Origin: a virus
DNA length: 64,000 bases
Strand: one strand, 5' to 3'
IMG/VR virus record: IMGVR_UViG_3300046170_000478
Coordinates: 1 to 64,000 of that record
A program made the position numbers and the translations under genes. A model generated the notes under the pieces. It was not told the origin of the DNA, ran no database searches, and worked only from the letters and a program-made list of their open reading frames with translations. The stretch's first letter is position 1, and every line of letters starts with the position of its first letter. Of this stretch, positions 7,322 to 27,693 are shown piece by piece.

Positions 7322-7350
7322 TTGATTTTAAAGCCCCTGCATTGTATAAT
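7322..7350 (+). promoter_or_regulatory. Sigma70-type promoter TTGATT-17-TATAAT for the glycosyltransferase
   Basis: The -35 box TTGATT is at 7322-7327 and the -10 box TATAAT at 7345-7350, with 17 nt between them. The -10 box ends 6 nt before the ATG at 7357, so transcription should start at or next to the start codon (leaderless). Confidence 0.6.
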
Positions 7351-7356
7351 GTCTTG

Positions 7357-8049
7357 ATGTTAAATTATGTATTTCTTATCCCTATAGATCATAGGGGAAT
7401 TCAAGGTAATTGTTTTGAACAGTATCTAAAACTCCAATCATGGTGTGACAAAAATAATTCAGCTATATTTACTTGTAGTGGATTATTCTTGAATTTTGCC
7501 AGAAATTTCTTAGCGACTGGGGGAGGTGGATTTCAAGACACTAGCCCTCCAGAAGCAGAGTGGCTTTTTTGGATTGACTCCGATGTTCAGTTTTCTATGG
7601 AGCATATAGAACAAATGATTAGAATCCCGAAAGACAAGAAATTTGTAACAGGTTGGTACAGATCTGATTATTCAGATAAGGCAATGGTAGGGAATTGGGA
7701 TGAAGATTTTTTTAGGAAAAACCTACATATGCCCTTTACCTCTGTTGAGTGGTTAGATAAATTGGGCAAAGAAAATCCAAATAAGCTGGTTGAGGTGGAC
7801 TGGTGTGGGTTTGGATTCACTAAGGTTCATAGATCCATTTACGAACAAATGGATTACCCATATTATCCATTGAGAACCGCAGACATTAAAGACTGTAATG
7901 ATCCCAACAAAGAGGGGGGAAAATTTGATGTGCATGATATGAGCTTTGAAGATGTTTCCTTCTGCAGGAATTTATACGATAAATTGAAAATCAAGCCTTT
8001 GGTTGTGCCGAGATTAAGAGTTGGGCATTTAAAATCCTTTTTTGTATAA
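7357..8049 (+). CDS. GT-A-fold glycosyltransferase-like protein
   Basis: The 230-residue protein has a WIDSDVQF segment (residues about 72-79) that resembles the metal- and sugar-nucleotide-binding DxD motif of GT-A glycosyltransferases. It is preceded by a conserved asparagine/arginine loop with NFARNF. Near the C-terminus FEDVSFC resembles the acceptor-side ED motif of GT2-like enzymes. The ATG at 7357 is preferred over a TTG at 7342 because the TTG lies within the promoter. It directly follows the fibre genes, so it might decorate the fibre or the host surface (inference). Substrate is unknown. Confidence 0.65.
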   Translation: MLNYVFLIPIDHRGIQGNCFEQYLKLQSWCDKNNSAIFTCSGLFLNFARNFLATGGGGFQDTSPPEAEWLFWIDSDVQFSMEHIEQMIRIPKDKKFVTGWYRSDYSDKAMVGNWDEDFFRKNLHMPFTSVEWLDKLGKENPNKLVEVDWCGFGFTKVHRSIYEQMDYPYYPLRTADIKDCNDPNKEGGKFDVHDMSFEDVSFCRNLYDKLKIKPLVVPRLRVGHLKSFFV

Positions 8050-8075
8050 TTTAGTGTAAGAATTAATAGATTAAA

Positions 8076-8094
8076 CTAAATTTTAACATATAAT
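8076..8094 (+). promoter_or_regulatory. AT-rich start-proximal element (CTAAATTTTAAC + TATAAT)
   Basis: CTAAATTTTAAC (8076-8087) is followed by TATAAT (8089-8094), which ends 5 nt before the ATG at 8100. Nearly the same block (CTAAATTTTAAC, TATTAT, 5 nt, ATG) precedes the gene at 38830, so it is probably a shared late-gene start signal. Confidence 0.4.
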
Positions 8095-8099
8095 TTATT

Positions 8100-8516
8100 A
8101 TGCCAGATTCCGATGATTCCGACTTGATTTTAGGTGATCCCGTTCCACGCGATGAGCCTTTTGTTGTTCCCGCTTCGCCAGAAGAGACTTATGACTCTGT
8201 ATGGCTCCGTAGTATCAATATCTATGCACCGAATAGTTCTGAAGCTGAGCCTCAGGGCGGCTCTCTTTCTATTGAGATGCTTCCTTATGATGGGTCAGAA
8301 GAAAAAGTCTTGATTACTGCAGATAACGAGGGAGTTGAATATATTAATGTTCCTAGTAGAGTTAATGGCCGCAAGCCTTTCTGGTCTTGTGTAGACGAGG
8401 TTCCAGAAGTAAAAGCTGCAATGGATGCTATTCTTGCTGCGATTCCCGCTTTACAAACTTGGGTTAATACACCTCCACCAGAGCCAGATCCACCAGAGCC
8501 GCCAGTAGGACCATAA
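8100..8516 (+). CDS. Small acidic protein with proline-rich tail, unknown
   Basis: This 138-residue protein is not recognised. Its N-terminus is rich in Asp, Glu and Pro, the middle has a predicted beta-type core (about 45-110), and the end is a PPPEPDPPEPP-type proline tail. It is the last gene of the fibre transcription unit and is closed by a strong terminator, so a virion-associated or fibre-accessory role is plausible. The start is supported by the AT-rich element 5 nt upstream of its ATG. Confidence 0.6.
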   Translation: MPDSDDSDLILGDPVPRDEPFVVPASPEETYDSVWLRSINIYAPNSSEAEPQGGSLSIEMLPYDGSEEKVLITADNEGVEYINVPSRVNGRKPFWSCVDEVPEVKAAMDAILAAIPALQTWVNTPPPEPDPPEPPVGP

Positions 8517-8540
8517 TAAAATTAATTTTTAATACAAAAA

Positions 8541-8573
8541 AAAGGGCGGATTTTAAAACTTCCGCCCTTTTTT
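8541..8573. terminator. Bidirectional intrinsic terminator
   Basis: A perfect 10-bp stem (AAAGGGCGGA at 8541-8550 with TCCGCCCTTT at 8561-8570) has T residues on the + side and A residues upstream. It can therefore stop both the + fibre unit and the convergent - operon that ends at 8587. Confidence 0.9.
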
Positions 8574-8586
8574 ATTTAGATCAACT

Positions 8587-9072
8587 CTATTTAAGTAGCT
8601 CAACCCATTCTACTTTTTCTATAGGCCCATAGTAGAAGCTTTGGCTGTAATTACCACTATACCTTTTGTCACCACTTGTTTTAGTAACCCACTGGTCCTT
8701 AGTCTTACTCACTCCAAGAACAGCCATATGAGTCATTGCTTTGTTTAGATAGTAGTAAACTTCGGGTTTAATTTTAGCATTATCATAAGAATGCTTAGCG
8801 CATACCATAAAATTCTTGCCGAATGGCCAATCTTCTTTCTTTGTAAATTCAGCGCTTAACCCTTTTGTCTCGACTCTGATTTCCCTACCGTCCTTTGTCA
8901 CAATATACAAATCTCCATCGTCAGCGAAATCTCTAGGATTATCTCCTCTACCCATTTTTCGCATTGGTTTAATTATAACTTCATAGCCTTTTTTATGTAG
9001 GTGCATGGCAATAACAAAAGTGGCCGACGTACTAGCATCTAAATGCTTGATAAATTTATCGTAATTACTCAT
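8587..9072 (-). CDS. PD-(D/E)XK nuclease-like protein
   Basis: The start is the ATG at 9072 (161 residues), which overlaps the end of the upstream small gene; a TTG at 9111 would give 174. Residues about 45-75 contain DDGDLYIV followed by REIRVETKG. This D...ExK arrangement on consecutive strands is typical of PD-(D/E)XK nuclease folds such as resolvases and restriction-like enzymes. A Lys/Arg-rich loop (KPMRKMGRG) precedes it. No wider family match is claimed. It is the last gene of the - operon carrying thyX. Likely role is DNA cleavage or repair, by inference from the motif only. Confidence 0.5.
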   Translation of the reverse strand: MSNYDKFIKHLDASTSATFVIAMHLHKKGYEVIIKPMRKMGRGDNPRDFADDGDLYIVTKDGREIRVETKGLSAEFTKKEDWPFGKNFMVCAKHSYDNAKIKPEVYYYLNKAMTHMAVLGVSKTKDQWVTKTSGDKRYSGNYSQSFYYGPIEKVEWVELLK

Positions 9073-9178
9073 TTTTATTTTTTCGTTTTGATTTTTCTGC
9101 TTCCTGAACAAACCATTGAGCAGGGTGAAACATTTTATCGTTGATAAATTGCAATATCTTTTTAATTATTTTTTTCAT
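9065..9178 (-). CDS. 37-aa basic peptide, unknown
   Basis: A short ORF with ATG at 9178 encodes a 37-residue peptide that is lysine-rich at both ends with an amphipathic start (MKKIIKKILQFI). Its stop overlaps the ATG of the downstream nuclease-like gene (AAAAATGAGTAA), which suggests translational coupling. It fills the only gap in this otherwise tightly packed operon. Function unknown. Confidence 0.5.
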   Translation of the reverse strand: MKKIIKKILQFINDKMFHPAQWFVQEAEKSKRKNKNE

Positions 9179-9183
9179 TTTGG

Positions 9184-26777: not shown

Positions 26778-26797
26778 AGTGTTAGGGTGTTTGGGTT

Positions 26798-26995
26798 TTA
26801 CTTGCGAGCATTACGCATATCGCGCAATGCTTTTGCTGCTTGCTCTCTGCTAATGGTGATTGTGCTGAATGTGGCAGGTGCGACACGGTAGATTAAAGCT
26901 ACTCTCTCAGTATCATAGACTCTGATGGCGAGGTTTTGGTTGTCGTACATGGTGCAGTCTTTTTCTCTTTGAATGTTGATGTGTGTCGCAGTCAT
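26798..26995 (-). CDS. Small protein, unknown
   Basis: The 65-residue protein with LAIRVYDTERVALIYRVAP and a basic C-terminal helix (REQAAKALRDMRNARK) is not recognised. ATG 26995 is 6 nt after a -10 box. Confidence 0.55.
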   Translation of the reverse strand: MTATHINIQREKDCTMYDNQNLAIRVYDTERVALIYRVAPATFSTITISREQAAKALRDMRNARK

Positions 26996-27001
26996 GGGAG
27001 T

Positions 27002-27031
27002 ATTCTAGTATAAAGTCGGGGCTAGTGTAAA
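27002..27031 (-). promoter_or_regulatory. Promoter TTTACA-18-TAGAAT
   Basis: TAGAAT (27002-27007) ends 6 nt before ATG 26995; TTTACA (27026-27031) lies 18 nt upstream. Confidence 0.55.
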
Positions 27032-27034
27032 GAT

Positions 27035-27199
27035 TTATTTTGATTTTTTAAAGACTACTTTGCCAGTCTCCATAGTAGCTTTCCAGTCGATAGGGTTGGC
27101 TTCGCGCTGCTTTTCGCGCTTCATTGCATCCTTGGCAAGTGAATCGCGAGCATCCAAAACTCTTTCGTGGTAAGTGCGGCCTGTGTTGTTTGCTGTCAT
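27035..27199 (-). CDS. 54-aa basic peptide, unknown
   Basis: ATG 27199 encodes 54 residues with a basic helix (HERVLDARDSLAKDAMKREK) and an IDWKATMETGKVVFK end. It sits between two promoters and is preceded at 6 nt by a -10 box, so it is likely a real gene. Not recognised. Confidence 0.55.
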   Translation of the reverse strand: MTANNTGRTYHERVLDARDSLAKDAMKREKQREANPIDWKATMETGKVVFKKSK

Positions 27200-27205
27200 G
27201 TGGGT

Positions 27206-27234
27206 AGTATACATTAAAAATTGATTTTAAACAA
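27206..27234 (-). promoter_or_regulatory. Promoter TTGTTT-17-TATACT with upstream CAGAAAAAGC
   Basis: TATACT (27206-27211) ends 6 nt before ATG 27199; TTGTTT (27229-27234) at 17 nt; CAGAAAAAGC abuts the -35 box. Confidence 0.65.
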
Positions 27235-27247
27235 GCTTTTTCTGCTA

Positions 27248-27658
27248 TTATTTTGAATTTATTTCAGGGTATTCTATAACCTCGTCATCATAGATTTTAC
27301 CGTTCAGGTCTGGGTCTGACTGTATAGCGCCAGTGTATTCCTTGCCCTCATAGGTGAAAGCTACTAAGTGAGTAGCCCAGCAACCGTCTTGCTCGACTAC
27401 TTCCCCAAACTCTATGGAGTCCTTGACTTCGCCATAGGTGAACGCTCTCTCTTTGATGTCGGTGATCTCATCGGCGTGGTTTTCCTTTGGGTCAACTGCA
27501 CAAGCTGCGATGATACCCTCATAGCATTTACCTTTATATATAAACTCGCAATGCCAAGTGAACTCCTCAGACATATGGCCAGTTTCAATTTGTTCAGCGA
27601 TAACATCAAAAGTAAGATCTTGGACTGACTTTGTGGTGATTGAGGTAATCTCTTTCAT
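27248..27658 (-). CDS. Acidic protein with internal duplication, unknown
   Basis: The 136-residue protein carries two related halves. HCEFIYKGKCYEGIIAACAV (about 36-55) and HLVAFTYEGKEYTGAIQS (about 96-113) share a f.Y.GK.Y.G.I pattern and each follows an acidic stretch. This suggests a duplicated small beta domain. Not recognised. It is the first - gene of the array, divergent from phoH. Confidence 0.6.
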   Translation of the reverse strand: MKEITSITTKSVQDLTFDVIAEQIETGHMSEEFTWHCEFIYKGKCYEGIIAACAVDPKENHADEITDIKERAFTYGEVKDSIEFGEVVEQDGCWATHLVAFTYEGKEYTGAIQSDPDLNGKIYDDEVIEYPEINSK

Positions 27659-27664
27659 GGGGGA

Positions 27665-27693
27665 ATTATATACTGAGATAAGATTTTTTAAAA
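27665..27693 (-). promoter_or_regulatory. Promoter TTTTAA-17-TATAAT with upstream CAGAAAAAGC
   Basis: TATAAT (27665-27670) ends 6 nt before ATG 27658; TTTTAA (27688-27693) at 17 nt; CAGAAAAAGC abuts the -35 box. Confidence 0.65.

Follow-up and report, generated by a model that had tools for sequence, protein, structure and literature searches.

Promoters set directly against start codons point to leaderless transcription in an uncultured marine phage

Introduction

Where do the mRNAs of a phage begin if its promoters leave almost no room before the start codon? This question is raised by the window analysed here, bases 1–64,000 of the 94,027-base marine virus record IMGVR_UViG_3300046170_000478, in which a sequence-only reading had listed twelve promoters with a −10 box 5–8 nucleotides (nt) before an ATG, proposing that the ATG is the 5′ end of the mRNA, that leaderless transcription is the rule, and that such a layout is unusual in a phage. 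To our knowledge, promoters placed against start codons are experimentally known only in a few phages, such as phiYS40. We find that the layout is real and strongly non-random, and that it is best explained by leaderless or nearly leaderless transcription; most transcription units of the phage very likely begin with no 5′ leader, host-type sigma-70 promoters being used early and GTGTAA promoters late.

The window encodes a tail fibre, terminase, PhoH, ribonucleotide reductase, DnaB, DNA polymerase III alpha and a glycosyltransferase. The terminase has at least 237 relatives among viral contigs, the best 80 of which are 82–100% identical to it, and its best matches in isolate phages reach only ~24% identity; searches with the DnaE and portal proteins of the record against isolated phages gave distant matches only. 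Genes pooled from the phage and its relatives were collapsed at 75% start-region identity to 885, including 600 unit-leading ATG genes and 258 internal genes. Throughout, d denotes the number of nt between the promoter element (−10 or GTGTAA) and the ATG.

Twelve early-type promoters abut start codons

The −35 hexamers, spacers, −10 hexamers and distances quoted previously agree letter for letter with the sequence in 12 of 12 cases, and the sites show the TTGACA-like and TATAAT-like elements, 16–18 nt apart, of sigma-70 housekeeping promoters. One register needed correction: at 24740 the quoted hexamers are present, but the −10 given as TTACTC lacks a T in its sixth position, and TACTCT, 6 nt from the ATG, is the better −10. 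The promoters are listed below, with the spacer length between the hexamers.

7322–7357, plus strand: TTGATT-17-TATAAT, −10 at 7345–7350, 6 nt, ATG 7357
12936–12972, minus strand: TTGACT-16-TATAAT, −10 at 12945–12950, 8 nt, ATG 12936
12998–13032, plus strand: TTGCAA-16-TAAAGT, −10 at 13020–13025, 6 nt, ATG 13032 (clamp-loader/RuvB-like ATPase)
14306–14340, plus strand: TTGACT-16-TACACT, −10 at 14328–14333, 6 nt, ATG 14340
15398–15432, plus strand: TTGACT-16-TAAAAT, −10 at 15420–15425, 6 nt, ATG 15432
24740–24775, minus strand: TTGCCA-17-TACTCT, −10 at 24747–24752, then CCCCCC, ATG 24740
25008–25042, minus strand: TTGCCA-16-TACCCT, −10 at 25015–25020, 6 nt, ATG 25008
25608–25644, minus strand: TTGACC-17-TAAAAT, −10 at 25616–25621, 7 nt, ATG 25608
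25913–25948, minus strand: TTTTAA-17-TAAAAT, −10 at 25920–25925, 6 nt, ATG 25913
26995–27031, minus strand: TTTACA-18-TAGAAT, −10 at 27002–27007, 6 nt, ATG 26995
27199–27234, minus strand: TTGTTT-17-TATACT, −10 at 27206–27211, 6 nt, ATG 27199
27658–27693, minus strand: TTTTAA-17-TATAAT, −10 at 27665–27670, 6 nt, ATG 27658

A terminator hairpin (24813–24792) lies upstream of the 24740 promoter. At 14340, an in-frame ATG at 14334, 6 nt earlier, abuts the −10 box, and a leaderless start would select ATG 14340 rather than ATG 14334. Our own codon-model gene calls, made without promoter input, gave an ATG start in 99 of 101 genes, and this promoter-blind caller itself picked the ATG at 7357, 13032, 14340 and 27658. 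Several of the other promoter-site genes are small and were left uncalled or given another start, and the pattern was therefore tested without gene calls too.

As a separate observation, the sequence AGAAAAAGCTT lies directly upstream of, or overlaps, the −35 box of the minus-strand promoters at 25913, 27199 and 27658 (25943–25960, 27229–27246 and 27688–27705), and is possibly an extended promoter or an activator site.

The spacing to the ATG exceeds chance

The plain count of promoter-consensus matches in 20400–28000 is no higher than in shuffles (16 versus 16.2), as it would be if AT-rich intergenic DNA put a −10-like hexamer near many ATGs by chance. Significance lies in the spacing to the ATG and in its conservation rather than in how many promoter-like sequences there are. 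A start-codon motif search of the phage and its relatives against dinucleotide shuffles, a check that the sequence-only reading had suggested, found the −10 distance enriched at d=5–8: a best −35/−10 pair of at least 7 bits stood there in 81 of 600 leading genes, compared with a shuffle mean of 7.85 (maximum of 20 shuffles, 18), and the counts were 41 versus 1.4 at 9 bits or more and 17 versus 0.25 at 11 bits or more. The 258 internal genes gave 13 versus 3.55, 2 versus 0.6 and 0 versus 0.05 at the same three thresholds; internal enrichment is weak or absent.

The individual elements behave likewise. TAnnnT stands exactly 6 nt from the ATG in 80 of 600 leading genes, compared with ~16 at an average offset, and TTGAC peaks 29–30 nt before the ATG of leading genes; neither peak is seen in the internal genes, where TAnnnT occurs at d=6 in 13 of 258. 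Unit-leading genes thus carry TAnnnT ~10–12 nt before the start codon, the arrangement by which TA-led leaderless genes are defined (PMC3160421). In the caller-free scan of 1271 strong sigma-70-like sites, an ATG at d=6 was met 144 times, compared with a background of ~18 per offset; near-identical relatives inflate these counts, and the dereplicated test agrees with them. Given this position-specific enrichment, together with the ortholog conservation and base signature described below, coincidence is contradicted by both the shuffle and the ortholog tests and is extremely improbable.

Conservation and base signature place the predicted start at the ATG

Comparison by eye of orthologous upstream regions showed that TAnnnT is kept 6 nt before the ATG while the spacers are unrelated. 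TATAAT lies 6 nt before the ATG of 7357 in 4/4 relatives and at 7 nt in 4/5 relatives of 12936. TAnnnT stands at exactly 6 nt in 5/5 relatives of 13032, again with unrelated spacers, and in 6/6 dereplicated upstream regions of 27199, and at 6 nt in 3/3 relatives shown for 25913. At 27658 the box at 6 nt reads TATACT in L099 and TACAAT in L142; at 24740, relatives L029 and L142 read TACACT-6-ATG; TTGACT is kept upstream of 15432 in L124 and L126; and the 25608 promoter is kept in L087. Genes that are operon-internal in another phage (the minus-strand gene 26777 and most copies of the minus-strand gene 21876) lack the box, and the L080 copy of 21876, which apparently has its own promoter, carries it close to the ATG. 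Equal frequency of −10 hexamers before internal operon genes, named in advance as a result that would speak against leaderless starts, was thus not seen.

The discriminator of the early-type promoters is C-rich, and the base at −1 of promoter genes with d=6 is C in 72%, T in 22% and A in 2%, compared with C in 9% and A in 38% of internal genes. Bacterial polymerase favours starting at a purine after a pyrimidine, ~7 nt downstream of the −10 box, and the A of the ATG is therefore the expected +1. In addition, in-frame stops, often within the −10 box itself, make the ATG the first possible start; at 24740, 5/5 relatives have an in-frame stop 10–15 codons upstream, and the longer open reading frame start at 24959 is therefore excluded.

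These −10-like hexamers might instead be AT-rich translation signals, such as ribosomal protein S1 binding sites or low-structure starts, on leadered mRNAs whose promoters lie further upstream. Such signals are known for bacteria that do not use Shine-Dalgarno (SD) motifs (PMC5397173, PMC3160421), and the scarcity of SD motifs here and the A-rich start contexts of internal genes would suit them. However, a translation signal does not account for partner −35 hexamers at 16–18 nt, for the C-rich discriminator with a pyrimidine at −1, or for terminators directly upstream of some promoters, and internal genes would need the same signal, yet they largely lack a hexamer at d=6. We consider this explanation very unlikely. 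SD-led translation was also considered and rejected, as an SD-like motif occurs in only 6% of genes.

The proposal that the ATG is the mRNA 5′ end is thus supported, as a prediction from sequence, by ortholog spacing, the pyrimidine at −1 followed by A at +1, the weak internal enrichment, the near absence of SD motifs, the in-frame stops and the phiYS40 control described below.

A probable second promoter class, GTGTAA, shares the geometry

The earlier list proved incomplete, having missed a second class of promoters with the same geometry. GTGTAA emerged as enriched near start codons without a preset motif, and GTGTAW or GTGTAG lies 5–14 nt before the ATG of 46 genes, in 34 of them at 8–10 nt. 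We name the two classes early and late after the genes behind each promoter, the timing being presumed from these genes. Late-type sites in this record include those below, listed with the candidate factor for them.

33462–33476, plus strand: GTGTAA at 33462–33467, 8 nt, ATG 33476 (protein distantly like a Bacillus phage portal)
35426–35440, plus strand: GTGTAA, 8 nt, ATG 35440
43065–43110, plus strand: terminator hairpin and T-run at 43065–43095, directly followed by GTGTAA at 43096–43101, 8 nt, ATG 43110
46051–46067, plus strand: GTGTAA, 10 nt, ATG 46067 (1620-amino-acid protein)
28895–29572, plus strand: sigma-70-family factor of 225 amino acids, proposed late sigma, with a region 2 match and a region 4-like C-terminal part

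Relatives with as little as 42% protein identity still have the site at 33476. The motif before 35440 overlaps with the stop codon upstream of it, yet GTGTA remains in L069 and L078, whose stop is earlier. The order terminator-GTGTAA-ATG seen at 43110 recurs in L008, L012, L066, L070, L072 and L074, and because GTGTAA is squeezed between the terminator T-run and the ATG, only a very short leader is possible there. The window holds about as many copies of the word GTGTAAA as expected (9 versus 8.8); only its position before the ATG is significant.

The product of 28895–29572 has region 2 homology, matching Pfam Sigma70_r2 with 31.6 bits (cut-off 24), and 25 of 31 relatives match PHROG 1740, 'RNA polymerase sigma factor'. 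The factor is represented at 76 loci. Between regions 2 and 4, Cys84, Cys87, Cys96 and Cys108 are invariant in all 31 aligned sequences, and this segment is a possible zinc-binding insert. The top Protein Data Bank (PDB) matches of its fold model are mostly sigma factors, and when the sigma profile was searched against PDB sequences, nothing significant was returned.

GTGTAA co-occurs with this gene across 40–100% identity. Fourteen records whose only shared gene is GP88 are without the phage sigma gene, an absence that is not absolute because records may be fragments, and GTGTAW at 8–10 nt was found in 0 of 179 genes in the group to which these records belong. GTGTAA could alternatively be a transcription-factor operator or an mRNA signal, with the phage sigma reading another element; the motif is short, has no clear −35 partner, and region 4 of the sigma is weakly recognised. 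Its fixed distance to the ATG, its position between terminator and ATG, and its co-occurrence with the sigma gene argue against this possibility, which we regard as unlikely, and favour GTGTAA as a promoter element.

Predicted mRNA starts and points against a leaderless programme

Since both early and late promoters stand directly against start codons, most transcripts are predicted to begin at or near the AUG. Early genes would be read from host-type sigma-70 promoters (TTGacn, 16–18 nt, TAnnnT), with +1 ~7 nt past the −10 box at the A of the ATG and a preceding C or T that suits the preference of the polymerase. Late structural genes would be read from GTGTAA 8–10 nt before the ATG, probably by host core polymerase carrying the phage sigma, with predicted leaders of 0–5 nt. 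Ribosomes of the host, presumably able to use leaderless mRNA, would bind the 5′-terminal AUG directly in a 70S-type initiation, and downstream operon genes would be translated from the same mRNA with little SD help.

A variant of this scheme has transcription starting a few bases off the ATG, giving very short leaders (1–8 nt) rather than strictly leaderless mRNAs. The spread of distances, d=5–8 at early and 8–13 at late promoters, would allow it, and at late sites with d=10–13 a pyrimidine-purine step 13–14 nt after the first G of GTGTAA suggests leaders of 2–5 nt, and of zero at d=8. The base signature of the dominant d=6 class nevertheless points to the A of the ATG, and as a general description we think very short leaders somewhat unlikely.

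Several observations weigh against a leaderless programme driven by two sigma factors. For many unit-leading genes, neither class of promoter can be recognised; an abutting promoter was looked for at phoH (27851) and none was found; and the following gene is leadered.

24165–24260, minus strand: exception at gene 24208, sigma-70-like CATAAT ~44 nt before the ATG, leader ~38 nt

Internal genes also show a mild excess of promoter pairs at d=5–8 at the loosest threshold (13 versus 3.6). The sigma-lacking relatives L105–L122 (GP88-gene relatives) have a smaller excess of ATG at d=8–9 after strong sigma-70-like sites, and short leaders may therefore extend beyond the sigma-bearing clade. For the proposed late sigma, the region 4 match of 16.2 bits is below the Pfam cut-off of 25.7, the fold model is of moderate quality (predicted local distance difference test, pLDDT, 72; predicted template modelling score, pTM, 0.41), and no PDB fold match falls below E=0.001 (E at least 0.0024). 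Leaderless transcription 'as a rule' is therefore predicted for those unit-leading genes whose promoter can be recognised, 24208 and phoH being exceptions. The leader of 24208 holds a GAGAG/CTCTC hairpin that is conserved in some relatives, and its orthologs are leadered in L096, L068 and L098 and have abutting promoters in the distant L104 and L152. A fully negative control for early promoters had been sought in L105–L122, but their ATGs at d=8–9 make them only partly usable as such; they are still GTGTAA-negative.

Comparison with known systems

In T4-type phages, late promoters carry a TATAAATA box and depend on gp55. Like these and other phage late sigma systems, the phage pairs a short element at the −10 position of structural genes with a phage sigma-like factor; unlike T4, the enriched box is GTGTAA rather than TATAAATA, and the ATG follows 8–13 nt after it.

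Two control phages were scanned in the same way as 50-kb stretches. Thermus phage phiYS40, reported to make mostly leaderless middle and late mRNAs (PMC3594737), showed promoters of leading genes clustered at d=5–7, the same −10 cluster before the ATG as here, and no GTGTAA peak. The likeness is functional, kinship is not claimed, and phiYS40 is absent among the 20 terminase matches listed for this record. Its type of host is probably different, and it differs in the share of genes with an SD-like motif, 31% compared with 6% here. Bacillus phage Slash, scanned identically, showed no promoter cluster at d=5–7, and 64% of its genes have an SD-like motif. By terminase, the nearest isolates belong to the Slash group (24% identity), and the annotation of Slash lists sigma factors encoded by that phage; unlike the present phage, the group has SD-led genes and no promoter-ATG abutment.

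Among cellular genomes, TA-led leaderless genes of Deinococcus-Thermus and Actinobacteria use a TAnnnT ~12 nt before the start codon as the −10 element (PMC3160421, PMC12340547). The spacing of TAnnnT to the start codon is alike, whereas the genes here are viral and AT-rich, have clear −35 boxes and are accompanied by a second class of promoter. The view that such a layout is unusual for a phage is thus right in that it is uncommon, though not unprecedented: leaderless phages are known (phiYS40), and what is new is that host-type and phage-sigma-type promoters are both joined to the AUG, and that this occurs in a marine group that is abundant, uncultured and nearly devoid of SD motifs. Within the literature collection searched, no report of leaderless transcription was found for uncultured marine phages.

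Host and implications

A terminase search of genome collections found one Flavobacteriaceae metagenome-assembled genome with two such contigs. None of the other 399 Flavobacteriaceae genomes had such contigs, and the Bacteroidota promoter box (TAnnTTTG at −7 with an upstream TTG) gave 2 matches in 486 leading genes; a binning error is therefore more likely, and we rejected a Flavobacteriaceae host resting on that single match.

The layout may bear on how the host begins translation. We tentatively speculate that the whole lytic programme is leaderless, read early by host sigma-70 and late by the phage's own divergent four-cysteine sigma, with nearly every unit starting at the AUG, that the host is a marine lineage that uses leaderless initiation as a main route, and that GTGTAA-AUG is a fused transcription-translation start element. 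The layout would predict the host's mode of beginning translation and may help to find the host. In practical terms, it lets mRNA 5′ ends be predicted from sequence alone, it provides a sigma factor and a promoter of an uncultured phage group that can be tested as a pair, and it implies that SD-trained gene finders will choose wrong starts across hundreds of related marine contigs (24959 instead of 24740 is one case).

Repeats and RNA elements near the promoters

A 75-nt module, in which two 25-nt near-palindromes (TAASTC-N13-GASTTA), exactly 50 nt apart, surround a 25-nt core of almost pure G+C, occurs at these positions and also in L098, L087 and L163.

21152–21226: 75-nt module
23255–23329: 75-nt module
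24450–24524: 75-nt module
25071–25145: 75-nt module
26031–26105: 75-nt module

We counted 89 distinct copies in 36 loci, with 0 centred in a called gene and none in sigma-lacking relatives; the module may serve as an array for protein binding, act as a site of replication or partition, or be a mobile repeat.

At 26186–26280 lies a non-coding element of ~90 nt that is 93–100% identical in most of 17 relatives (including L085, L087, L088, L091 and L098), with differing flanks and no Rfam match. On its minus strand, CGTC/GACG, ACGG/CCGT and GGCATA/TATGCC stems are possible, and in L098 the last becomes TAGCTA/TAGCTA with pairing kept. It is adjoined by a plus-strand promoter at 26156–26184 (TTGACA-17-TAAAAT, 11/12 consensus), which points away from the minus-strand genes and is kept in several relatives.

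In several relatives the ~90-nt element directly adjoins a 66-nt RNA (L085:361–426, L087:7986–8051 and L088:1552–1617; similar in L029, L063, L080 and L104), which was not found in this record or in 396 Bacteroidota genomes. It aligns with both ends of the transfer-messenger RNA (tmRNA) model, the 312-nt middle being replaced by 4 nt, and its score of 43.5 bits (E 3.6e-14) falls slightly short of the gathering score, 47. With a tRNA-like domain, a CCA end and G3-U70 (alanine identity) and no mRNA-like part, it may act as a decoy in ribosome rescue or modulate that process. The window contains no tRNA genes; those of L087, L091, L098 and L099 have a CAT anticodon (Met or Ile2), and two of these relatives also have one with TAA (Leu).

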